From: a virus
Strand: one strand, 5' to 3'
IMG/VR virus record: IMGVR_UViG_3300025313_000023
Coordinates: 1 to 50,058 of that record
DNA: 50,058 nt
In this document: in pieces, positions 10,579-45,492 of the stretch
Layout of the letters: each line of letters begins with the position of its first letter
Numbering within the stretch: the stretch's first letter is position 1
Notes under the pieces: model-generated
The model's database searches: none
Seen by the model: only the letters and a program-made list of their open reading frames with translations
What the model was told of the DNA's origin: nothing
Position numbers and translations under genes: made by a program

Positions 10579-10697
10579 GGCAGGCGGAGCCCGAAATAGG
10601 CCAAAGCCGCGCAGAGCAGTAGCAAGGCGACCAAACCGGCCCCAAATGCCACCAAAGCCGTCTGAACGGACCGGGGGCCGAGAGGGCTAGGAGGCAT
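10575..10697 (-). CDS. Single-span membrane peptide, 40 aa
   Basis: ATG 10697 opens a 40-residue frame. A short Pro-rich N-terminus is followed by one hydrophobic helix (TALVAFGAGLVALLLLCAAL) and ends GLRLP. The stop overlaps the NTP-transferase ATG (ATGA) and the start lies 11 bp inside the GIY-YIG gene, giving a tightly packed operon. Predicted to sit in the cell membrane; function unknown. Confidence 0.6.
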   Translation of the reverse strand: MPPSPLGPRSVQTALVAFGAGLVALLLLCAALAYFGLRLP

Positions 10698-16603: not shown

Positions 16604-17484
16604 CAACTTGGCCCTGGAACATCGCCGCCATCGCCGACGGGAATCTGATCGGCGCAGAGCTTAGAGCGATTGAAGTGGGAGCTATGGTCGGCTGCCAGCC
16701 GGAGATGGTGCCCGGCGCGTGCACGAACTGCGGCGGACGCGAATTCATGGCGGCCTGGCGGATCGAGATAAATGGCAATCGTCACTATTTCGGTCCAGGA
16801 TGGGGTGACTGGCGACCGGCCAGCTTGCAGACACAGCCATGCCCCGTATGCCAAGGCTCGGTCCGGATGGAGGCGCTCCAAGACATTTCTGGCTTGGGTG
16901 GCCTCGTCCTTGACGGCAAAGCCGCTGGCAGTCTGCGCCTTGATGCTTTCCGCCCAGAGACCGGCCAAGTTGACGCGCTGGAAGCATGCCGACGGCTACT
17001 CGTTGAGCTCCCCAGTCCGCGCACCTGGGCTCTGTTCTTCGGTGGGTACGGAACGGGAAAGACGCATCTGCTATGTTGCTTGGTGAACGCCTGCCTGCTG
17101 ATGGACGTCGCGGCCCGATACACCACCGCAGAGGGCATCCTGCGTAGCCTTCGGGCCACGTTCGATGGGCGGCACGGCACAGAGGCAATTCGCCAGGAAC
17201 TCGAGAACATCCGCGTGCTCGTCGTCGACGAGATCGATCGCGTGAAGCTCAGCGATTGGGCTGGCGAGACCTTATTCGGCATCCTGAATGCACGATACAC
17301 GCACGGCCTCGCGACTTGGTGCGCGACCAACAAGGCACCCAATGAGCTGGAGGCCTCCGAGGTCTATGGAGCCTTGGTAAGCCGTCTCTCCTCTGGCGAG
17401 ATGGTCGCTATCACAGGGGACGACATGCGGCCAATGGCCCAGACACAGCTTCCCGACCGTCGGGATGGAACGGCGGCGGGGTGA
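16600..17484 (+). CDS. DnaC-like helicase loader (AAA+ ATPase)
   Basis: 294 aa from GTG 16600 (GGGGAGCG upstream, GTGA overlap). Two CxxC pairs (41-44 and 81-84) form a zinc-binding N-terminal region. Walker A is GGYGTGKT (148-155), Walker B VLVVDEIDR (D210/E211), and a sensor region ATWCATNKAP follows. This matches DnaC/DnaI-type loaders that deliver host DnaB helicase to the origin. The palindrome TCCCGACCGTCGGGA lies at the very end of the gene (17451-17465). Confidence 0.85.
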   Translation: MTTWPWNIAAIADGNLIGAELRAIEVGAMVGCQPEMVPGACTNCGGREFMAAWRIEINGNRHYFGPGWGDWRPASLQTQPCPVCQGSVRMEALQDISGLGGLVLDGKAAGSLRLDAFRPETGQVDALEACRRLLVELPSPRTWALFFGGYGTGKTHLLCCLVNACLLMDVAARYTTAEGILRSLRATFDGRHGTEAIRQELENIRVLVVDEIDRVKLSDWAGETLFGILNARYTHGLATWCATNKAPNELEASEVYGALVSRLSSGEMVAITGDDMRPMAQTQLPDRRDGTAAG

Positions 17485-17936
17485 TCTTCAGAAACGCACT
17501 CGCCCAGGCGATCCTGGCCGGCCGCAAGAGCCAGACGAGACGCATCGCCCGCAAAGGTGAGCTCCTCTCCAGGAATGGTCACGGCCATCCAGCGGTCGTC
17601 GTTCCCGGGCCCAACGGATCCCGCATCCGATACCAAGTCGGCAATGTCTACGCCGTCCAGAACGGGCGCGGACTGAAGGCGATCGGCCGCATACGTCTGA
17701 TGTCGATCTCGTCGGAGCACCTGCAGGAGATCAGCCCGATTGAGGCGGCGATGGAAGGGGTGGAGCCAGACTACATGCCGAGCCCGTGGGGCTTGCAACC
17801 TGCGTATCTACCGCCGTTCCGCCGACTCTGGGATCGTATCCATCCGAAGCGGCCCGAGCGATGGGAGGACGATCCCCTCGTCTGGGCACTCACATTCAAA
17901 CTTGAAGGAGAAAATGATGCCCGACATGAAACCTAA
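17481..17936 (+). CDS. ASCH-domain protein
   Basis: 151 aa from GTG 17481 (GTGA overlap). MIFRNALAQAILAGRKSQTRR, the VGNVYAVQNGRGLKAIGRIRL core and PFRRLWDRIHP...WEDDPLVWALTFKL are characteristic of phage ASCH proteins, which have a PUA-like RNA-binding fold. They are thought to act on RNA or modified nucleotides. Exact role unknown. Confidence 0.75.
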   Translation: MIFRNALAQAILAGRKSQTRRIARKGELLSRNGHGHPAVVVPGPNGSRIRYQVGNVYAVQNGRGLKAIGRIRLMSISSEHLQEISPIEAAMEGVEPDYMPSPWGLQPAYLPPFRRLWDRIHPKRPERWEDDPLVWALTFKLEGENDARHET

Positions 17937-18186
17937 GACACCGGCTGAGGAGTGGCGAATGGGCCGTCAGGAATTCTACGGTGAGGATTCGATGTATGCC
18001 ATCGGTGATAGATTGGCAACCGCCCTCTCGGCCTCGCAGGAGCGGGTGCGGGAGCTGGAGGGAAGAATCGACGCGGCAGTCGCATACATCTATGGGGAAG
18101 ACGATCCAGATATGCCGGGTATGCCCTGGGCCATTCAGCATATCGTCCGCATTCTTGACGAGGCAGAGCGAGGAGGCCAGGGATGA
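17914..18186 (+). CDS. Small coiled-coil protein, 90 aa
   Basis: ATGATG start at 17914 after AAGGAG. A coiled-coil segment ALSASQERVRELEGRIDAAV (about 37-57) shares an almost identical DNA stretch with the next gene. The end ERGGQG is produced by the recurrent junction sequence at 18166. Function unknown. Confidence 0.6.
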   Translation: MMPDMKPKTPAEEWRMGRQEFYGEDSMYAIGDRLATALSASQERVRELEGRIDAAVAYIYGEDDPDMPGMPWAIQHIVRILDEAERGGQG

Positions 18187-18506
18187 GTGACACCAAGACG
18201 GTTCTACTGAGCGAGATGATGCACGCAGCGGAGAAGTCGGATGAGTGGCACTTCCCGATGAGCTGGACCGATAAAGTCGCGGAGCTAGAGATCACCCTCG
18301 CGGCCTCGCAGGAGCGGGTGCGGGAGCTGGTGGAAGGGAGAGCCCTGGCGGAGGCTTTGGTTTTGTCCCACGAGGGACACATCGCTACCCTAGAGAAGCA
18401 GATGCGTGAGCTGGAGGGGAAGTTGATTTTGATGACCGCCGAGCGGGATGCTGTTTGGTCGGAGCTGCACGGCCTACTCGGGCAGTTCGACAATACTGAC
18501 GCGTAG
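18183..18506 (+). CDS. Coiled-coil protein, 107 aa
   Basis: ATGA-coupled start inside a repeated junction. Long heptad-like region (VAELEITLAASQERVRELVEGRALAEAL then LEKQMRELEGKLILMTAERDAVW). The ASQERVREL segment is shared with the upstream gene and echoed at 21331, suggesting local duplication. No enzymatic motif. Confidence 0.6.
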   Translation: MSDTKTVLLSEMMHAAEKSDEWHFPMSWTDKVAELEITLAASQERVRELVEGRALAEALVLSHEGHIATLEKQMRELEGKLILMTAERDAVWSELHGLLGQFDNTDA

Positions 18507-18522
18507 AGCGAGGAGACCAGGG

Positions 18523-18690
18523 ATGAAACGTAAGCATGTGACACACTACTCCACGCTGGGCCTTGTCATCTGCACCAATCGCGAGCCCGGCCCGCGCCAA
18601 CATGCCGTTTGGGGAAACATGAGAGTGACCTGCAAGAAATGCCGTGACATCCTAGGATTGCCCCAGCGGAGCAAGGAGGCCGGGGGATGA
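18523..18690 (+). CDS. Small CxxC protein, 55 aa
   Basis: ATG 18523 in a repeated junction (GGAGACCAGGG upstream). HVTHYSTLGLVICTNREPG and VTCKKCRDILG give one CxxC plus upstream Cys and His residues, compatible with a zinc knuckle. Its stop overlaps the next start as ATGA. Function unknown. Confidence 0.55.
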   Translation: MKRKHVTHYSTLGLVICTNREPGPRQHAVWGNMRVTCKKCRDILGLPQRSKEAGG

Positions 18691-18872
18691 AACCTGACTG
18701 GCCAGAAATCGTACGCAATCTATTGACCGCCCTTCCTGACAGTCGTGGTCTGGGCGGGACCGACAACCGATGGTGGAGAAGTCTCACTCTTGAGAATCGG
18801 CGCTATGTAAAACGAATGCGGCGCGAAGCCGAGGCCGCTATCCGCAAGGCAGAGCGAGGAGGCCAGAGATGA
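18687..18872 (+). CDS. Small basic protein, 61 aa
   Basis: ATGA-coupled. Contains LGGTDNRWWRSLTLENRRYVKRMRREAEAAI, a basic helical C-terminus ending KAERGGQR from the recurrent junction. Possibly nucleic-acid binding; no family recognised. Confidence 0.55.
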   Translation: MKPDWPEIVRNLLTALPDSRGLGGTDNRWWRSLTLENRRYVKRMRREAEAAIRKAERGGQR

Positions 18873-19285
18873 GTGACTTGAACGAACGTAGAGCCGGGTT
18901 CGTGTACGATGCCGCTCGGCTTGCGGCGGCTGCTGCAGGCGCTCCTATCGTCCCAGTTGCATGGGCCGAGCGGGAGGATGCCTTTCGCAGTCAGTTTCTC
19001 CAGGTGATTGAGCGACAGTGTGGAGAGCAGCGTTCGAGATCGACGGAGGAATTGCACGGCTCCTGGATGCAGGCGTACTTCGCAATGGGATGGACTTATG
19101 GCCTTATCTACGACCGCGAGTCATTGACCCATCCCGACCTTGTGCCCTATGCCGAGCTTGGCCAACTCGAACAAGATAAGGATGCCGTCTTTATCGCCTT
19201 GTGTGAGATTGCGCGCCAATGGATACGAGGGAGCGAGGAGGCCAGGGATGAGCATCATGCCGGGCGTGATGATAGATCTCCATGA
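18869..19285 (+). CDS. RyR-domain-like protein
   Basis: 138 aa, ATGA-coupled. The stretch WMQAYFAMGWTYGLIYDRES then THPDLVPYAELGQLEQDKDAVF (about 66-105) matches the RyR domain seen in ryanodine receptors and in phage and bacterial proteins of unknown role. Its last 13 codons run past the next gene's start (38-bp overlap), probably because the repeated junction was inserted in another phase. Confidence 0.65.
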   Translation: MSDLNERRAGFVYDAARLAAAAAGAPIVPVAWAEREDAFRSQFLQVIERQCGEQRSRSTEELHGSWMQAYFAMGWTYGLIYDRESLTHPDLVPYAELGQLEQDKDAVFIALCEIARQWIRGSEEARDEHHAGRDDRSP

Positions 19286-19524: not shown

Positions 19525-20232
19525 ATGCGAAAGATGATTATCGTACTCAGCCTGACGTTGGCGCTCCTCAGCTTGTTTGGCCTGACGGCGGCCGTCATGG
19601 CCGATCCGCCTCCGAGCTGCCCAGATGGCCAGCATTATGACCAGCAGTCGCAGCAATGCGTGGACAACGGTCCGCCGGAGGAGCCCACGGCCGAGCCGAC
19701 CACAGAACCGACGGCCGAGCAACCGACAGCCACGGCAGTAGTCGATCCGACCGCCACTGACCAGGGGCCGGAGAGCCGTGCATACTGCCACGCCACTAGT
19801 GACCCAAGCGGGACGCACTACCAGTATCTTTTCAACCCGGCCTGGGTGCAGCACTTCGAGAACAACGGTACCCCGAAGGATGGCCACGAATTGGACTTCT
19901 TCACGTTCGAGGGCAATACCGACTGTGTGCGGGACGAGCCCACGGACGATCCGACCGCCACTGAGATCGTTGAGGCGACTGCCACGGATGTCATCGAACC
20001 TACGGCGACCGAAGAGGGCCAGCCAACGGCCACTGAGGAAGGCCGACCAACACCAACGGATGATTGCATCCCTGGAGGCGGCACAGAGTTCGCCCCGTGC
20101 GCAACCGTGACGCCCAAGCCTCCGTCTCATCCTGGGACGGGCCCGGAGGAGTCGTCCGCCGTCCTGGGATGGCTGACGACGATGGGAATCGGACTGGCCT
20201 CCGCCGGCATCGCTGGGATGCGCAGGCGCTAG
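19525..20232 (+). CDS. Exported Thr/Pro-rich protein with HPGTG sortase sorting signal
   Basis: 235 aa from ATG 19525 (GGGAGAGAC upstream). Signal peptide 1-26 ends AVMA. Two Thr/Glu/Pro linkers (PTAEPTTEPTAEQPTATAV and the PTATEEGQ/PTATEEGR repeats) flank a Cys-containing domain with YCHATSDPSGTHYQY and DGHELDFFTFEGNTDC. The C-terminus carries HPGTG (202-206), a hydrophobic span (about 212-231) and a final MRRR: the full cell-wall sorting signal layout, with His replacing Leu of LPxTG. A sortase-like gene lies two genes downstream. It is predicted to be covalently displayed on the host surface during infection. Linkers of this style are frequent in Chloroflexota. Confidence 0.75.
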   Translation: MRKMIIVLSLTLALLSLFGLTAAVMADPPPSCPDGQHYDQQSQQCVDNGPPEEPTAEPTTEPTAEQPTATAVVDPTATDQGPESRAYCHATSDPSGTHYQYLFNPAWVQHFENNGTPKDGHELDFFTFEGNTDCVRDEPTDDPTATEIVEATATDVIEPTATEEGQPTATEEGRPTPTDDCIPGGGTEFAPCATVTPKPPSHPGTGPEESSAVLGWLTTMGIGLASAGIAGMRRR

Positions 20233-20234
20233 CC

Positions 20235-20501
20235 ATGTTCAAGTTCGATCAGCACGAGAAGGTGAAGGACATCATCTCCGGCTTCACTGGGTTGGTGGTA
20301 GGACGCACCGAATGGGACAACGGCTGCATCAGATACACCGTCGCATCCCAGAAGCTCGACAAGGACGGGAAGGTGATCGCGAGCGAGGCATTCGATGAGT
20401 CTAATCTCGTGAGCCTTCACAAGCCCAACCTCGTCGATCCTGACGAGGGCAGGGCGCGCCCGGGTGGGCCTCCAGTGTACGGAGATCCGAGGCCTCGGTG
20501 A
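20235..20501 (+). CDS. Conserved phage protein (FKFDxxVKDxxSGFxG family)
   Basis: 88 aa from ATG 20235. MFKFDQHEKVKDIISGFTG, VGRTEWDNGCIRYTV and EAFDESNLV match a short SH3-like family widespread in phages and plasmids with no assigned role. It lies between the sortase substrate and the sortase and overlaps the latter as GTGA. Confidence 0.65.
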   Translation: MFKFDQHEKVKDIISGFTGLVVGRTEWDNGCIRYTVASQKLDKDGKVIASEAFDESNLVSLHKPNLVDPDEGRARPGGPPVYGDPRPR

Positions 20502-21334
20502 AACCGATCTGGCCGCCGTACTTCCTGGCGGTAGGCCTGCTGATGATCCTCAGCGGGGCGGGCCTCTATCTGCAGCGATACATGCCGCAGAAGCCGAGGG
20601 CCCGACACGGCATGGCGGCGGTAGTGCCCAAGGCTACCGTCGCCGTGCCAGTGTCCATCCTGGCCATCGAGGCGGCCGGGATGCCTACGCCTCTCCCGAC
20701 GGTCTGGATTGAGCCAACGCCCAACCAGCACGCCGCCTGGACCTACGACGGAGTGGACCTTGCCTCCAGCCAGGTGACGTTCGTGACGGTTGGAGGCATC
20801 GCCCTCAATCCAGTCACGCCCTACCCTTGGACACCGGACTCCCTCGGCTCCGGCATCTTCGACTGGGGCCATCGGACCGGGCTCGCCTGGGCTGACGATC
20901 ATGGGCGGGTCGGATTCTGGATCCACTCGGGCGAGGACGAGACCGCCTATCCCCTCCAACTCGTCCTTGAGCGGACGCCACAGGGATACCTCGTCTCCGC
21001 TGACGAAGGCGAGGCCCGGTTGGCGGCGCTCATCGGAGCACCCGTTACCATCGATCAGGCGGGGTGGGCGGAGAACTCCATCGTGGTGGCCGCCGTGCGC
21101 GTCCCACCGCTTGAGGTTCCGAGCCTCGATGGCCACGTCGAGGACCTAGCCGAGTACCTGGCTGAGCACTATCCCGGTCAGGGATGGGAGCAGATCGTCG
21201 CTCGGGACGATGCGCTGATGCTCTTCTTCTGCGGCCTCCGTCTCGCTGGCGAGGAGAAGAATCCGAGAGAGAACTTCTATCGCCAGGCAAGGTTCATCAT
21301 CGGACTTCTACCAGAGCGAGGAGGCCAGGGATGA
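20498..21334 (+). CDS. Membrane-anchored sortase-like transpeptidase
   Basis: 278 aa from GTG 20498. An N-terminal membrane span (YFLAVGLLMILSGAGLYL) is followed by a linker and a catalytic region with the sortase triad order: His143 in GFWIHSG, Cys245 in MLFFCG and Arg265 in RQARFIIGL. Sortases cut a sorting signal between Thr and Gly and link the protein to the wall or to another protein. The HPGTG protein at 19525 is the obvious candidate substrate. The fold assignment is from motif order and context, and sequence identity to classical sortases looks low. Confidence 0.65.
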   Translation: MKPIWPPYFLAVGLLMILSGAGLYLQRYMPQKPRARHGMAAVVPKATVAVPVSILAIEAAGMPTPLPTVWIEPTPNQHAAWTYDGVDLASSQVTFVTVGGIALNPVTPYPWTPDSLGSGIFDWGHRTGLAWADDHGRVGFWIHSGEDETAYPLQLVLERTPQGYLVSADEGEARLAALIGAPVTIDQAGWAENSIVVAAVRVPPLEVPSLDGHVEDLAEYLAEHYPGQGWEQIVARDDALMLFFCGLRLAGEEKNPRENFYRQARFIIGLLPERGGQG

Positions 21335-21642
21335 GTGACATGACAGAGAAGGAGCGCGCCGACCGCCTGGAGGCTATGGTAGATCGCCTGTTGGGGACGA
21401 TTGTCGAGTTGAAGTCCGAACTCTCCGCCTCGCAGGCTGAGCTTGCTGTAGCCAACATGCGACTGCAAGCGTCTGAGGAGCGGGTGCAGGATCCGGCGGG
21501 CAAATTAGCGGTATGGCAAGACATTCATACGCCAGGGCAGACAGCCGAACCATACACGGTCACATGGACGAGTAGCGATGGGACGAGGGGCGAGTTCATC
21601 GTGGGTGGCCGGTCGCAGAGCGAGGAGGCCAGGGATGAGTGA
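21331..21642 (+). CDS. Coiled-coil protein, 103 aa
   Basis: ATG 21331 inside a repeated junction. Residues 1-60 form a coiled coil (RADRLEAMVDRLLGTIVELK, SASQAELAVANMRLQASEERV), then a beta-like end (PYTVTWTSSDGTRGEFIVGG). It resembles the coiled-coil genes at 17914 and 18183. The end SEEARDE is produced by the next junction copy. Function unknown. Confidence 0.55.
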   Translation: MSDMTEKERADRLEAMVDRLLGTIVELKSELSASQAELAVANMRLQASEERVQDPAGKLAVWQDIHTPGQTAEPYTVTWTSSDGTRGEFIVGGRSQSEEARDE

Positions 21643-21892
21643 CATTCGATGGACGAATGAATTTTGCCCACCGGCTACGAAGATTGCCCGCGTTGCCTGT
21701 AGACTTTTCGGCCATTCGATCTTCCGTGAAACAAGCGAGATGATCTACTGCCTGCGATGCTGGCGGATCGGATGGGTCATAGAACGCCCACGCAAATTGA
21801 TGGGCTACCCTCGCCGATTCGTGAACGAGCGTCCAGATCCAACGAGCGACCCACCGACCCACCGGTCATTGAGAGAGGAGACCAAGCAATGA
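21635..21892 (+). CDS. Small zinc-ribbon-like protein, 85 aa
   Basis: ATG 21635 in a repeated junction. VACRLFGHSIFRETSEMIYCLRCWRIG (about 20-46) has a Cys/His...CxxC layout fitting a zinc site. Pro/Arg-rich tail. Function unknown. Confidence 0.55.
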   Translation: MSDIRWTNEFCPPATKIARVACRLFGHSIFRETSEMIYCLRCWRIGWVIERPRKLMGYPRRFVNERPDPTSDPPTHRSLREETKQ

Positions 21893-38717: not shown

Positions 38718-41153
38718 CTACGCTGCGACCGCCTTGCGCCGCTTGCGGGCCGCCTTCCGTTTGACGGGCGCCTTCGCCTCCGCCTTCGGCTTCTGGCCAT
38801 TGTTCAAGACGCCTTCAAGGACGATGGACAGCCCGACGGCCTCAGCCTCGGGCGGGATCGTCTCGATCTTGGGCACGATCGGCGCTGGCGGCATCGGCCG
38901 GACGGGAACTGCTTCTACGACCCTCCAAAGGCCAAGCCGGACGAGTCTCGTGACGTCGTCCGGATGGACGCTGGCGAACTTGTGAACTGGGTTGTTGCCG
39001 CCCCGATACATCCGGCCTTCGGCCCCGTGGTAGGTGACGGCGCCGCTCCGTGTGCCGACGAACTCCATCCTCACCCAGCCAGTCGATCCCTCGCGCACGG
39101 CCGTGGCCGGCAGGGGGAGATCAGTCCCTTCGACGGCCTGGCGTGCGACGTTCTGGTCCCCCTTACCGTCTCCGCAGCCTCCACCACATCCCATCGGATT
39201 CTCCTTCAGTTTGGACTTCGGACCCAGCCTGCCTTCGGCCAGGATACGGAGTTCGCTCTCAAGCATGTCGGGCAGGAGCGCCTCGCCTGCCTTGACATCG
39301 ACCGTGAAGCGGCCACGCGCTTCCGTTGGTTCCTTCGGCGCGACCTGTCGCACGAAAGGATACACCCGAAGGACCTCGGCGGAAAGTGCTGGCGTGACCG
39401 CGATAGCCTCCCATGCCCTCACTGTCTGGCCCAGGATGTCCTCGAGCGTCTCCTTCCAGTCGCTCTCGATGCGTCCGTGAATGAGGAGCGACACGACTGG
39501 ATCAGCGTAGCTCATCACGTCCGGCATGTCGCTCGCCGGCGCTCCCATTGGATAGCGGTCGTCTCGCATCCAGGGGTGATGCTCGTCCGTGGCAACATAC
39601 TTCTTCATGCGGGAGGCCGATTTGCTGTGCGCCCGGTAGAGGAAGAGCCTGTGGTCGCTGGCGCGTTTGGCCCGGAAGCCAACCGAGAGGCCGCGCGTCC
39701 AGAACTCAGCATCCTCACCCGGGGCGTAGTGCTGCTCGTAGCCGCCAGCGCGCTCCCACATCGATCGACGGAACATAGCCGCGGAGGGAACGCAGTTGGA
39801 GGGCGGGACAGTCGCTTTGGACTGGATCTTCCAGTCGAATGGCGGCGGCCAGTTGTACCACTCGACCCGCTGGTTCTCCTCGTAGTGGACCTCGAGGCCC
39901 GTGTAGACGATCCCGAGCCCTCGGTCCCGCTGCATCTCCTTCGTGCAGGCCTCGAGATAGCGGGAGGCAAGGCGGTCGTCTGCGTCGAGGCAGACGATCA
40001 GGGGGGACTTGGCTTCGGCGATGCCATTGTTCCTGGCAGCTGCCACGCCCTGATTGGCCTGCCAGATGTAACGGACCTTGGAATGATGCTCCGCCAGTCG
40101 GCGCCCGACCGCCTCGCTATCGTCCGTGGATCCATCGTCAACGATGATGATCTCAGACGCCGGCACTGTCTGGGCCAGGACGCTCTCGACGCATTCGATC
40201 AGATAACGGCCGTAGTTGAAGCACGGGATGATGACCGCGACGGCCTCGCCCTTCTCGAAGGCCAGGCGAGCGGCATACGCCGCCCGATAGATTTCGGCAT
40301 AGCGCGCGGCGACCCGATCCCAGGTGAATTCCCTCGCCCTCTCCCGAGCGTTGTGGCCCAAATCCCGACGTCGGGAAGCGACCCAGTCCACCGCGGCGTT
40401 CAGGCCCTCGATGTCCCCCGGCTGGACAAGGAAGCCGTCGATCTCATGGCGCACGATGTCGGCCGTCCCGCCCCAGCGATAGCCGAGCACAGGCACGCCA
40501 GCCGCCATCGCCTCAAGCGTCCCGAGCCCAAAGGTCTCCCGTGTCGTCGCCAAGTAGATGTCGGCCTTGGCGACCATGCTCATCATCTCGTTCCACGGTA
40601 TGGAACCCGTCACCCACATATTTCCCGGGATGTCGGCCGCGCTGTGCGGAGCGAAGGTCGAGATCACCTGCCGACCGCGGCGGGCCAGCTCGAGCGCCGG
40701 TGTCGGATCGCAGACATCCTGCGCCCGGTTCTTGTTCCAGAGGATGTAGCCTCCGTTCACGTCCTCGACGAAGCGCTCGGCTTCGATCCCGTGGGGAACG
40801 ACATCTGGGCTGATACGCATGTCCCGCTTGAAGGGCTCGGCGACCCATTCGCTCGGGACCGTCACCCTGAAGGCCTGTCGGGTGGCCTCGATGATGGAGG
40901 CGTTAGCCTGCTGGTGCCAGCTGGCATATTGAGCATGATGAATATCCTGGAAATATAAGCCGTGGCACCCGAGGACGTCCACCCTCGGCATGTTGCCCTG
41001 CTGCGTATGGCAGAAGATCAAATCGGCCTCGTCTGGATTGTCAGTTACCTCAATGCCGACCTGCGGGAGATACCGATACTGTGCATGGACAACCCGCCCG
41101 ATGCCGCTCGACAACTGGCTCCCACTCGGCGATGGCCAGATGCAAACCCTCAC
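38718..41153 (-). CDS. Dual glycosyltransferase (GT4-like plus GT2)
   Basis: 811 aa from GTG 41153. Residues 1-300 form a GT4/GT1-type transferase (SSGIGRVVHAQYRYLPQVGI, VPSEWVAEPFKR, TRETFGLGTLEAMAAGVPVL with its conserved E-x7-E). Residues about 312-540 form a GT2 domain (AVIIPCFNYGRYLIECVESV, IIIVDDGSTDDSE, VCLDADDR). Later parts include a Cys-rich GCGGGCGDG loop, a module with RMYRGGNNPVHKFASVHPDD and a very basic C-terminus (KRKAARKRRKAVAA). Two GTs in one chain could build a disaccharide on a virion protein. Confidence 0.8.
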   Translation of the reverse strand: MRVCIWPSPSGSQLSSGIGRVVHAQYRYLPQVGIEVTDNPDEADLIFCHTQQGNMPRVDVLGCHGLYFQDIHHAQYASWHQQANASIIEATRQAFRVTVPSEWVAEPFKRDMRISPDVVPHGIEAERFVEDVNGGYILWNKNRAQDVCDPTPALELARRGRQVISTFAPHSAADIPGNMWVTGSIPWNEMMSMVAKADIYLATTRETFGLGTLEAMAAGVPVLGYRWGGTADIVRHEIDGFLVQPGDIEGLNAAVDWVASRRRDLGHNARERAREFTWDRVAARYAEIYRAAYAARLAFEKGEAVAVIIPCFNYGRYLIECVESVLAQTVPASEIIIVDDGSTDDSEAVGRRLAEHHSKVRYIWQANQGVAAARNNGIAEAKSPLIVCLDADDRLASRYLEACTKEMQRDRGLGIVYTGLEVHYEENQRVEWYNWPPPFDWKIQSKATVPPSNCVPSAAMFRRSMWERAGGYEQHYAPGEDAEFWTRGLSVGFRAKRASDHRLFLYRAHSKSASRMKKYVATDEHHPWMRDDRYPMGAPASDMPDVMSYADPVVSLLIHGRIESDWKETLEDILGQTVRAWEAIAVTPALSAEVLRVYPFVRQVAPKEPTEARGRFTVDVKAGEALLPDMLESELRILAEGRLGPKSKLKENPMGCGGGCGDGKGDQNVARQAVEGTDLPLPATAVREGSTGWVRMEFVGTRSGAVTYHGAEGRMYRGGNNPVHKFASVHPDDVTRLVRLGLWRVVEAVPVRPMPPAPIVPKIETIPPEAEAVGLSIVLEGVLNNGQKPKAEAKAPVKRKAARKRRKAVAA

Positions 41154-41163
41154 GCTTCACCAG

Positions 41164-41178
41164 CGATTGTGCTATATT
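41164..41178 (+). promoter_or_regulatory. Extended -10 promoter of antisense HNH gene
   Basis: CGATTGTGC-TATATT: TG-C plus -10 TATATT at 41173-41178, start expected near 41185, only about 10 nt before the ATG. No -35. Shares CGATTGTGC with the portal promoter and the early promoter. Confidence 0.5.
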
Positions 41179-41194
41179 TACATGGGCGATAGAC

Positions 41195-41884
41195 ATGAGA
41201 CGGGGAAGGATCGTCGAGTGTGCAAGGTGTCGAAGAGTGCGTCGGAATAATGGCCACGGACTGTGTTCCTCCTGTTTCGCGGCTTGGAATCGAAAACGGA
41301 CGACGCCGGGCTTCGTCTGTGGGCGATGCCATAGGGCGGGCCACCATGAAGCCAGAGGCCTTTGTGTCTCCTGCTACCGATCTGTTTATCAGACCGCTCA
41401 TCTTGCGCAGCATGCGAGCTATGAGCGCCAACGAAGGCGCGAGCAGAGTGCCCATATCAGGGAGCTTGAGAAGCGCCGGGCCAGAACCGATAGCCGCCGC
41501 GCCTGGAAGAAGGCTTACGGTCGCGCGTATTACGTGATCAACAAGACGCGGCTTCAGGCCTACAATCGTGCCTGGCTCCGCGCGCATCGTGAACAGATGA
41601 ACCACTACTCCGCGGTATATAGCACGCGAAAGCTCGGCTTGCCTCATACCCTTTCCATCTCTGAATGGAATGCCATCCTCGATCACTTTGATCACCGTTG
41701 CGCCTACTGTGGCAGGAAGGCTCGCAGGCTCTGTCGCGAGCACGCAATCCCAGTCAGCCGAGGTGGCGGCTATACGGCCGATAACATCGTGCCCGCGTGC
41801 GGATCCTGCAATTCGAGGAAGCATAACAAGACGCCAGAAGAGTTCGCCGCGTATCTCAAACTCCATCCTGAACCATTTGGCTAG
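41195..41884 (+). CDS. HNH homing endonuclease with zinc fingers, antisense to operon
   Basis: 229 aa from ATG 41195. Two zinc fingers (CARCRRVRRNNGHGLCSSC and CGRCHRAGHHEARGLCVSC, residues 9-60), a basic helical linker, and an HNH domain (CAYCG, EHAIPVSRGGGY, NIVPACGSCNSRK, about 177-215). It is the only rightward gene in a 22-kb leftward block and has its own promoter, as expected for a mobile endonuclease inserted between two operon genes. Confidence 0.85.
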   Translation: MRRGRIVECARCRRVRRNNGHGLCSSCFAAWNRKRTTPGFVCGRCHRAGHHEARGLCVSCYRSVYQTAHLAQHASYERQRRREQSAHIRELEKRRARTDSRRAWKKAYGRAYYVINKTRLQAYNRAWLRAHREQMNHYSAVYSTRKLGLPHTLSISEWNAILDHFDHRCAYCGRKARRLCREHAIPVSRGGGYTADNIVPACGSCNSRKHNKTPEEFAAYLKLHPEPFG

Positions 41885-41889
41885 CTTGC

Positions 41890-42474
41890 TCACAGGAAGA
41901 GTCCCGATCCAGCGGGGCCAGCGCCGCGCTTGAAGGCCGCCGTGATGGATACGATGCCGACAGCCTCCCAGTCGGGGTCGGTCTCAATCAGGTCTCGGAC
42001 AACACCCTTCACGTCGCCCCAGGGAGCGTTGTCATAGTCATGGAAAACGAGGAAGCCGCCCGTCCGGATGTGCTGGCCCCACGCCCGCACGTCGCCCGAG
42101 CAGCCTTCGTAGGAGTGATCCCCGTCGATGAAAACGAGGTCGACTGGCCCGCCTTCCCATGTGCGCCCGACCTCCTTCGAGTCTCCGTGGATCTGGATGT
42201 GCCGCCCGAGGCCCCACAGCCCGGCGGCCTCAAGGGCATTTCGCTCGCTCTGGAGACCCCCTAGCGGGGACGCATCGGCCTGTATATCTACTGTAATCAC
42301 GTTCAGATCGTCCCGGGCTTCTAGGAATGCTAGGCAGGAGGTTCCCGCCCCCGCCCCGATGTTCACGATCTTGGCCCGCGGCGGCAGTTGGCGGGCCAAG
42401 TCCTGCAGGAACTCGACCTCTCCGTCCAGCAGATAATGGAACGCTGCCCGAACGTCCTGGGCGGCATGGCTCAT
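41890..42474 (-). CDS. SAM methyltransferase (Methyltransf_24 type)
   Basis: 194 aa from ATG 42474 (ATGA overlap). KIVNIGAGAGTSCLAFLE is the SAM site, VITVDIQADA the acidic strand end, VDLVFIDGDHSYEG the family-typical motif. Such enzymes often methylate sugars. It is coupled to the FkbM gene. Confidence 0.8.
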   Translation of the reverse strand: MSHAAQDVRAAFHYLLDGEVEFLQDLARQLPPRAKIVNIGAGAGTSCLAFLEARDDLNVITVDIQADASPLGGLQSERNALEAAGLWGLGRHIQIHGDSKEVGRTWEGGPVDLVFIDGDHSYEGCSGDVRAWGQHIRTGGFLVFHDYDNAPWGDVKGVVRDLIETDPDWEAVGIVSITAAFKRGAGPAGSGLFL

Positions 42475-43184
42475 GGATTTCTCTCCTTCGGGAAGAGTAG
42501 CCAATTGTTCGGGTTGCCACCGTCGAGAACCAGATGATCATAGCCCCAGACCTCGATCAGGTCGGCCACGTCCTGCATGGAGTGGGCACGCCAGGCAAGC
42601 GCGTGATTGACCTCCGAGATGATGAACGGCCTATGTTCCTTCACGATCTCTGCCGCGCCCACCAGCGCCTCCAGGTCCCAGCCGTCCACGTCCGTCTTGA
42701 TCAGATCGACGCGCGGCCAATGCTGGCAGATGGCGTCGATCGTCGTGAAAGTGTAGCGCCCTGGCGTCCGGCCTTGGTCAGCGCCCCTGCCCGTTAGCCA
42801 GAGCGTCTCATCGGCCACTCCCTGAACTGCTCCGACCGCCATCTGCAGGACCGTCGGCTCTATCATCTTCCATCCGCCAGCGACCGCCATGATGTTGTGC
42901 CAGATGTTCACCCGCAGCTTGGCCGCCGTATGCACCGATGCCTCGACGCCGACGACATGGCCATCATGGGCCAGCCGCGAGAGGAGGATCGTGTAGTAGC
43001 CGACGTGGGCACCGACATCGAGGCACCACCAATCAGGCTTGACGTGATCGGCCATCCAACGCTCGGTCTCGCGCTCGGCCGTCTGGTAGGTCCCGTTCTC
43101 AGCGTATTCCGGATAGAAGTCGATCAGTTCCGTCATGCGTCCGTCGGCTGCCATCCGTTGAATGATCAGCGCGGGGAGCGTCAT
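42471..43184 (-). CDS. FkbM-family methyltransferase
   Basis: 237 aa from ATG 43184 (ATGA overlap). WWCLDVGAHVGYYTILLSRL (SAM motif I), VVGVEASVHTAAKLRVNI, and DLIKTDVDGWDLEALVGA near 185-200 are FkbM hallmarks. The family O-methylates hydroxyls of sugars or small molecules. Confidence 0.85.
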   Translation of the reverse strand: MTLPALIIQRMAADGRMTELIDFYPEYAENGTYQTAERETERWMADHVKPDWWCLDVGAHVGYYTILLSRLAHDGHVVGVEASVHTAAKLRVNIWHNIMAVAGGWKMIEPTVLQMAVGAVQGVADETLWLTGRGADQGRTPGRYTFTTIDAICQHWPRVDLIKTDVDGWDLEALVGAAEIVKEHRPFIISEVNHALAWRAHSMQDVADLIEVWGYDHLVLDGGNPNNWLLFPKERNP

Positions 43185-43723
43185 GCCCACGGTTCCTTCC
43201 CGGGCGGGCACTGGTAGCCACGGACGAGAACCATCTTCATCTGCTCATCCTTCTTGTCATGCCATCGGAAGTCGAATGGCTCGAAATCCCCGCGGCACCA
43301 GGCGCTTCGATGGATCTCGGTCTCATAGCCGCCAACGGCGAACTGGGGCACCCCCACGGGAAACACCGCCATCAGGACGTGACAGCGATGGACGGCCTCA
43401 TGCAGGAGATCAAGGCCATCGCTCTTGGTGAGGTGTTCTAGGAAATCGCCGAAGATCACCACGTCGGTCAGATAATCTCTCGACCTGGCAAAGAATCCCT
43501 GCGCCCACTCCTGAAAGACATGGTCGTAGATGCTGCGGAGATTGAACTGCTCGACGTAGTCGGGCTCGACCTCGACGGCGCTGACGACGGCCCCGGGCTT
43601 GACCGCCTTGATCATCCGCCCGTACTTCCCAGATCCGGCGCCGAAGTCAAGGAACCGGAGGTAGGGCCAAGAGGCGATCATGTCAGCGATCTCGGCATCG
43701 AAGGCAGTGGAACTGCTCGGCAT
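43181..43723 (-). CDS. SAM methyltransferase, 180 aa
   Basis: RFLDFGAGSGKYGRMIKAV (motif I), VSAVEVEPDYVEQF (motif II) and DVVIFGDFLEHLTKSDGLDLL are class I methyltransferase motifs. Short and compact. 1-bp overlap upstream, 4-bp downstream. Confidence 0.8.
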   Translation of the reverse strand: MPSSSTAFDAEIADMIASWPYLRFLDFGAGSGKYGRMIKAVKPGAVVSAVEVEPDYVEQFNLRSIYDHVFQEWAQGFFARSRDYLTDVVIFGDFLEHLTKSDGLDLLHEAVHRCHVLMAVFPVGVPQFAVGGYETEIHRSAWCRGDFEPFDFRWHDKKDEQMKMVLVRGYQCPPGKEPWA

Positions 43724-45408: not shown

Positions 45409-45425
45409 GTCACTCCTCCTGTGAC
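45409..45425 (-). promoter_or_regulatory. Hairpin with the RBS in its loop
   Basis: On the minus strand GTCAC-AGGAGGA-GTGAC: a 5-bp stem whose 7-base loop is the ribosome site of the 26-aa ORF. Confidence 0.55.
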
Positions 45426-45436
45426 CCTCTGAAGTA

Positions 45437-45492
45437 GCTCGGGCAGGCGGGAGAGGTATCCCCGCTTTTCGGGTGCGACCCTAGCCCGAGCT
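45437..45492 (-). promoter_or_regulatory. Structured intergenic element after capsid gene
   Basis: AGCTCGGGC (45437-45445) and GCCCGAGCT (45484-45492) form a perfect 9-bp stem enclosing two smaller hairpins. Lies between capsid stop and the glycan genes; could attenuate read-through or stabilise capsid mRNA. Confidence 0.5.

Follow-up and report, generated by a model that had tools for sequence, protein, structure and literature searches.

The sortases (PF04203), and especially class F and other types with a single transmembrane (TM) helix and LPxTG substrates, are the closest described counterparts of two genes that we analysed in an IMG/VR virus record (IMGVR_UViG_3300025313_000023, 50,058 bp; this whole stretch is hereafter the window). 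As in these enzymes, the 278-aa product of one gene has an N-terminal TM anchor followed by a linker, a predicted extracellular domain that ends just past the strand bearing the Arg, and one active-site-like Cys with a His before it and an Arg after it. Furthermore, the window resembles sortase loci in having, nearby, a gene for an exported substrate-like protein ending in PxTG, a hydrophobic span and a basic tail. The spacing from His to Cys is nevertheless 102 residues, against 65–67 in the consensus of our control sortase alignment, and the sorting motif opens with a His (HPxTG) where that of sortase substrates has a Leu (LPxTG). The exosortase/PEP-CTERM and rhombosortase/GlyGly-CTERM systems also devote an enzyme to a C-terminal sorting tail, as we propose here. 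Exosortases and rhombosortases are multi-pass membrane proteins, whereas the 278-aa protein combines a single TM helix with a soluble domain and would act on a PxTG substrate. The features on which the comparison is built are the following.

19525–20232, plus strand: exported HPxTG surface protein of 235 aa, recognised from its translation, the tail test and comparison with the second locus
20128–20229, plus strand: C-terminal sorting signal HPGTG...MRRR of this protein, residues 202–235, with the same tail layout in the second locus (L043/L057)
20235–20501, plus strand: small cytoplasmic-type protein of 88 aa (phrog_16275), between the cargo and enzyme genes
20498–21334, plus strand: membrane-anchored sortase-like protein of 278 aa, with a domain of ~195 aa that a linker joins to an N-terminal TM helix
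20924–20926, plus strand: codon of His143 (FWIHSG), conserved in the relative
21230–21232, plus strand: codon of Cys245 (LMLFFCG), the sole Cys of the 278-aa protein, invariant in both members
21290–21292, plus strand: codon of Arg265 (RQARFII), invariant in both members
21309–21339, plus strand: copy of a 31-nt repeat where the enzyme gene stops and the following gene starts; with the copy at 19226–19256, it bounds the segment in which the pair lies

The cargo protein and its phage

The window appears to come from a soil or groundwater phage, and its tailed-phage genes include portal-like, terminase, tape-measure, replication initiator, DnaC-like loader and RusA-like resolvase genes. A near-identical contig, G001, runs from position 38777 of the window through its end to position 10582, bridging positions 1 and 50058 at 99.98% identity. 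The record, although listed as linear, is thus circular or circularly permuted, and the genome is probably complete. The gene pair lies in a plus-strand region 3′ of the replication genes, apart from the minus-strand structural genes. A search for the host through TerL in genome contigs gave no match; Pro/Thr-rich stalks like those of the cargo would suit Chloroflexota or Actinomycetota.

The 235-aa protein begins with a signal peptide, MRKMIIVLSLTLALLSLFGLTAAVMA, continues with Cys-containing segments on Pro/Thr-rich stalks, and finishes with TPKPPSHPGTGP, a hydrophobic span and MRRR. HPGTG occupies residues 202–206, and the full tail reads TPKPPSHPGTGPEESSAVLGWLTTMGIGLASAGIAGMRRR. We searched for the combination of P-x-T-G, hydrophobic span and basic tail in all six-frame ORFs of 100 aa or more from the window and five related contigs, and a single ORF among 867 had it, the 235-aa protein itself. 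Shuffling the sequence of this protein 20,000 times did not once reproduce the tail, which is far beyond chance. The export, the motif, the hydrophobic span and the MRRR end, all noted in the initial annotation of this DNA, are therefore borne out by the translation and by the tail test. The layout of LPxTG-type signals (signal peptide, xPxTG, hydrophobic span, positive C-terminus) is present here as HPGTG...MRRR and in the second locus as HPPTG...RKRN; the curated anchor models (Pfam Gram_pos_anchor and the NCBIfam sorting domains) match neither cargo protein.

The candidate enzyme and a second locus

The gene of the 278-aa protein starts with a GTG that overlaps the stop of the preceding gene. 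AlphaFold places the TM helix at residues 5–28 (pLDDT about 72–89), followed by the linker and then the domain, an arrangement that, as modelled, gives the protein the membrane anchor and extracellular domain of a sortase. The translation agrees with the earlier description of a membrane-anchored protein with His143, Cys245 and Arg265, two genes after the cargo. The H-C-R order alone is weak evidence for a sortase; among 283 six-frame ORFs with 180 aa or more, 12 (~4%) show it, as do 1% of shuffles.

No relative of the enzyme emerged from peptide seeds run on viral and genome contigs or from tblastn against phages and plasmids. Two hits of a C-terminal seed (L027 and L028) were set aside: they are antisense to another long ORF, share a short segment and are devoid of the Cys and Arg motifs. 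A DNA pattern of two motifs (WIHSG, about 98 residues, FCG) scanned over IMG/VR returned 15 loci, one of which, L043, is a true relative, with 42% identity to the 278-aa protein (E=2.2e-53). It lies on the 18.8-kb contig IMGVR_UViG_3300025325_000176, hereafter G009. The L043 enzyme keeps H143, C245 (the sole Cys of its domain) and R265, as well as H78, H213, R248 and R262, and conservation between the two proteins is densest around WIHSG and LMLFFCG...RQxRxII. H125, absent from L043, was rejected as the catalytic His. According to the initial annotation, relatives having lost His143 or Cys245 would have spoken against a sortase; both residues are retained at 42% identity. As the search pattern contains the H143 and C245 motifs, their presence in L043 partly reflects selection, which did not bear on R265, on the overall identity or on the neighbouring gene. 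The enzyme is known from two loci, and the conservation of H, C and R rests on this one relative.

The gene adjoining the L043 enzyme upstream, on the same strand, codes for a protein of 193 aa that is exported and likewise carries Pro/Thr-rich stalks; its ectodomain differs from that of the window cargo, and its tail reads TPEPPEHPPTGPGDFLPLAVPITAVLGSLGAFALALRKRN. A gap of 12 nt separates the stop of this gene from the GTG start of the enzyme. The tail of G009 consists of TPEPPEHPPTGP, a hydrophobic span and RKRN, that of the window of TPKPPSHPGTGP, a hydrophobic span and RRR, and the context TPxPPxHPxTGP is common to both. The two cargo proteins (235 and 193 aa) align in low-complexity stretches only, with a best E of about 0.03. 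As they are unalignable beyond these linkers, the recognition tail is conserved and the cargo is not. An enzyme and an HPxTG tail that are both conserved, while the cargo attached to the tail is not, form the pattern expected where a sortase-like enzyme has its own dedicated substrate. Since the pairing recurs in another mobile DNA that is otherwise different, the link between the two genes looks real, and no other observation supports the pairing as strongly as this neighbouring gene.

The second locus also bears on the gene at 20235, which the initial annotation had tentatively counted in the module. Its product belongs to phrog_16275, an unrelated phage family, and has relatives in phages of Microcystis and Brevundimonas. 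No gene of this type stands between cargo and enzyme in L043/L057; the gene at 20235 is probably external to the module. Its position in the window could be taken in favour of another explanation, namely that a host sortase anchors the phage cargo, the 278-aa protein being an unrelated membrane protein that lies nearby by accident. Bacterial sortases can indeed anchor foreign LPxTG proteins, and an H-C-R order found in 4% of ORFs is common. But elsewhere, at a locus that is otherwise different, the two genes adjoin, with a common HPxTG tail and invariant H, C and R, and we regard this explanation as quite improbable. That the tail and the enzyme motif are both non-functional, as the lack of a family match for either protein might suggest, is at odds with the 20,000 shuffles that failed to give the tail and with the joint recurrence of tail and enzyme in L057. 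Given the second locus, chance is close to refuted and we accord it practically no weight.

Contig G009 is viral according to IMG/VR; it has phage-type genes (HNH/AP2-like and Lar-like) and has a further gene in common with the window (17346–17933 of the latter, 40% identity). It also carries Flp pilin, TadE-like and Tad genes, a thermonuclease and radical SAM proteins, and may be a phage, a plasmid or a chromosomal element. Considering this mixed gene content, we call the enzyme family mobile-element-borne and not strictly phage-borne. The Flp pilin, TadE-like and Tad genes are found around the second enzyme-cargo pair (L057:1–6300).

Sortase profiles, alignments and fold

The 278-aa protein does not match PF04203, the Pfam Sortase model, at E≤10, nor the NCBIfam sortase models or PHROGs, and the G009 enzyme is likewise unmatched by the Pfam and NCBIfam sortase models. 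As controls we used seven plasmid sortases representing classes A, C, F and GN, and all seven match PF04203 at E≤3e-9; since the four classes are recovered, the profile test has power. The controls also match phrog_23668 and phrog_22228, two families of sortase-type proteins among reference phage genomes, neither of which the 278-aa protein matches. Sortases in phage sequence are thus not unprecedented and are known as unannotated families. The phage records with sortase-like sequences are mostly unannotated contigs (e.g. OR849934 and OR844999), one or two being 99% identical to a staphylococcal, that is host, sortase, and such matches are probably host DNA contamination. We found no published phage sortase-substrate pair in the open literature, most subscription journals being outside this coverage.

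Alignments of the 278-aa protein to 12 sortases (hhalign, local-profile and anchored-profile) were not significant, a short Cys-to-Arg segment excepted. An alignment with class F sortases that looked attractive by eye was dropped since it failed shuffling. The residue before Cys245 is a Phe, both members having LMLFFC where the sortase signature is TLxTC; accepted sortases also depart from this signature, for instance with ILLSC (PMC13257024).

The fold sought was an eight-stranded beta-barrel in which the His ends strand 4, the Cys ends strand 7 and the Arg starts strand 8. AlphaFold run without relatives, on the full length and on the domain only, reached pLDDT values of 39.5 and 40.9, and Foldseek searches of the predicted models against the PDB and BFVD gave nothing significant. 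In the full-length model, of low confidence (pLDDT ~40), a strand ends at H143, C245 lies close to the end of one, and another begins at R265, in agreement with the positions reported for these residues in sortases (PMC13257024). At this confidence, the apparent fit is only a hint. As PF04203 and TLxTC are both unmatched and the model stays at a pLDDT of ~40, the 278-aa protein cannot be filed in the sortase family; a sortase call from its sequence only would be weak, and its membership in the fold is not established. The sortase and substrate proposed initially therefore stand as a pairing, with H143, C245, R265 and the adjoining HPxTG protein conserved, and not as a sortase fold, for which there is neither a profile match nor a model above a pLDDT of about 40.

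These results leave room for a membrane-anchored cysteine enzyme of unrelated fold that would process the HPxTG tail differently, for example a protease releasing the cargo rather than linking it to the wall. The undetectable similarity to any sortase profile and the unusual LMLFFC in place of TLxTC are in line with such an enzyme, and the extra invariant H213, R248 and R262 could belong to another active site; the P-x-T-G, hydrophobic span and basic tail are however a recognised hallmark of sortase substrates, and the low-confidence model puts H, C and R at strand positions that fit sortases. We hold the unrelated fold to be rather unlikely, and think that the pair is probably a divergent sortase-like transpeptidase with its dedicated HPxTG cargo.

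Proposed surface display and the surrounding genome

On this reading, the 235-aa cargo would be exported by Sec through its signal peptide and would stay in the membrane by means of the hydrophobic span and RRR tail at its C-terminus. The membrane-anchored 278-aa enzyme would recognise HPxTG and cut it via Cys245, helped by His143 and Arg265, presumably between the Thr and the Gly. The freed carboxyl end of the cargo would then be joined to a cell-envelope amine, so that the Pro/Thr-rich stalk would present the Cys-containing head on the outside of the infected or lysogenic cell. The sequences show the gene anatomy, the sorting-type tail, and the conservation of H, C and R and of the pairing at another locus; the cleavage, the wall attachment, a sortase fold and any part played in surface change, receptor masking or phage exclusion are inferred. 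The blocking of superinfection, put forward in the initial annotation, is speculation, and what the phage would gain, whether exclusion, receptor masking or adhesion, is guesswork.

We would give even chances to a broader proposal, that of a family of HPxTG-specific sorting enzymes outside current profiles, borne on mobile elements and each accompanied by an interchangeable cargo, by which a phage or another mobile element, while infecting its host or persisting as a lysogen, displays a protein of its own, covalently anchored, on the host surface. If the pairing is as we propose, the phage would equip itself, with enzyme and cargo alike, to remodel the host surface independently of host sortases. 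Its enzyme, falling outside every sortase model tested, would possibly be a sortase with a new specificity (HPxTG), and the locus would allow phage-driven surface display to be tested directly, be it for receptor masking, adhesion or exclusion.

Five related phage contigs (G004–G008; one of 52.7 kb, one of 46.3 kb and three partial) have a TerL 50–57% identical to that of the window. They contain no HPxTG protein and no convincing relative of the enzyme, a 37-residue weak match in G007/G008 being rejected as linker similarity; the pair thus looks like accessory cargo. In the comparable region of G004, an exported Pro/Thr-rich protein without a sorting tail (L008:1202–1513) is followed by a protein that is papain-like by eye (L008:1731–2429).

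The 31-nt repeat, AGGCAGAGCGAGGAGGCCAGGGATGAGTGAC, occurs in the window at 18161–18191, 18501–18531, 18847–18877, 19226–19256, 21309–21339 and 21613–21643. It straddles successive gene junctions: one ORF terminates within it and the following one begins there, the two overlapping at ATGA. We take it to resemble the start-associated sequences of some actinophages. These repeats may mark exchangeable gene cassettes.

Elsewhere in the window, the minus strand encodes, at 38718–43723, a large double glycosyltransferase-like protein, an FkbM-type methyltransferase and a second methyltransferase-like protein, a set that suggests glycan modification. An int-alpA RNA (Rfam RF02996, 58.7 bits, E=1e-9) lies at 45425–45491, minus strand, among minus-strand genes otherwise without assigned function.
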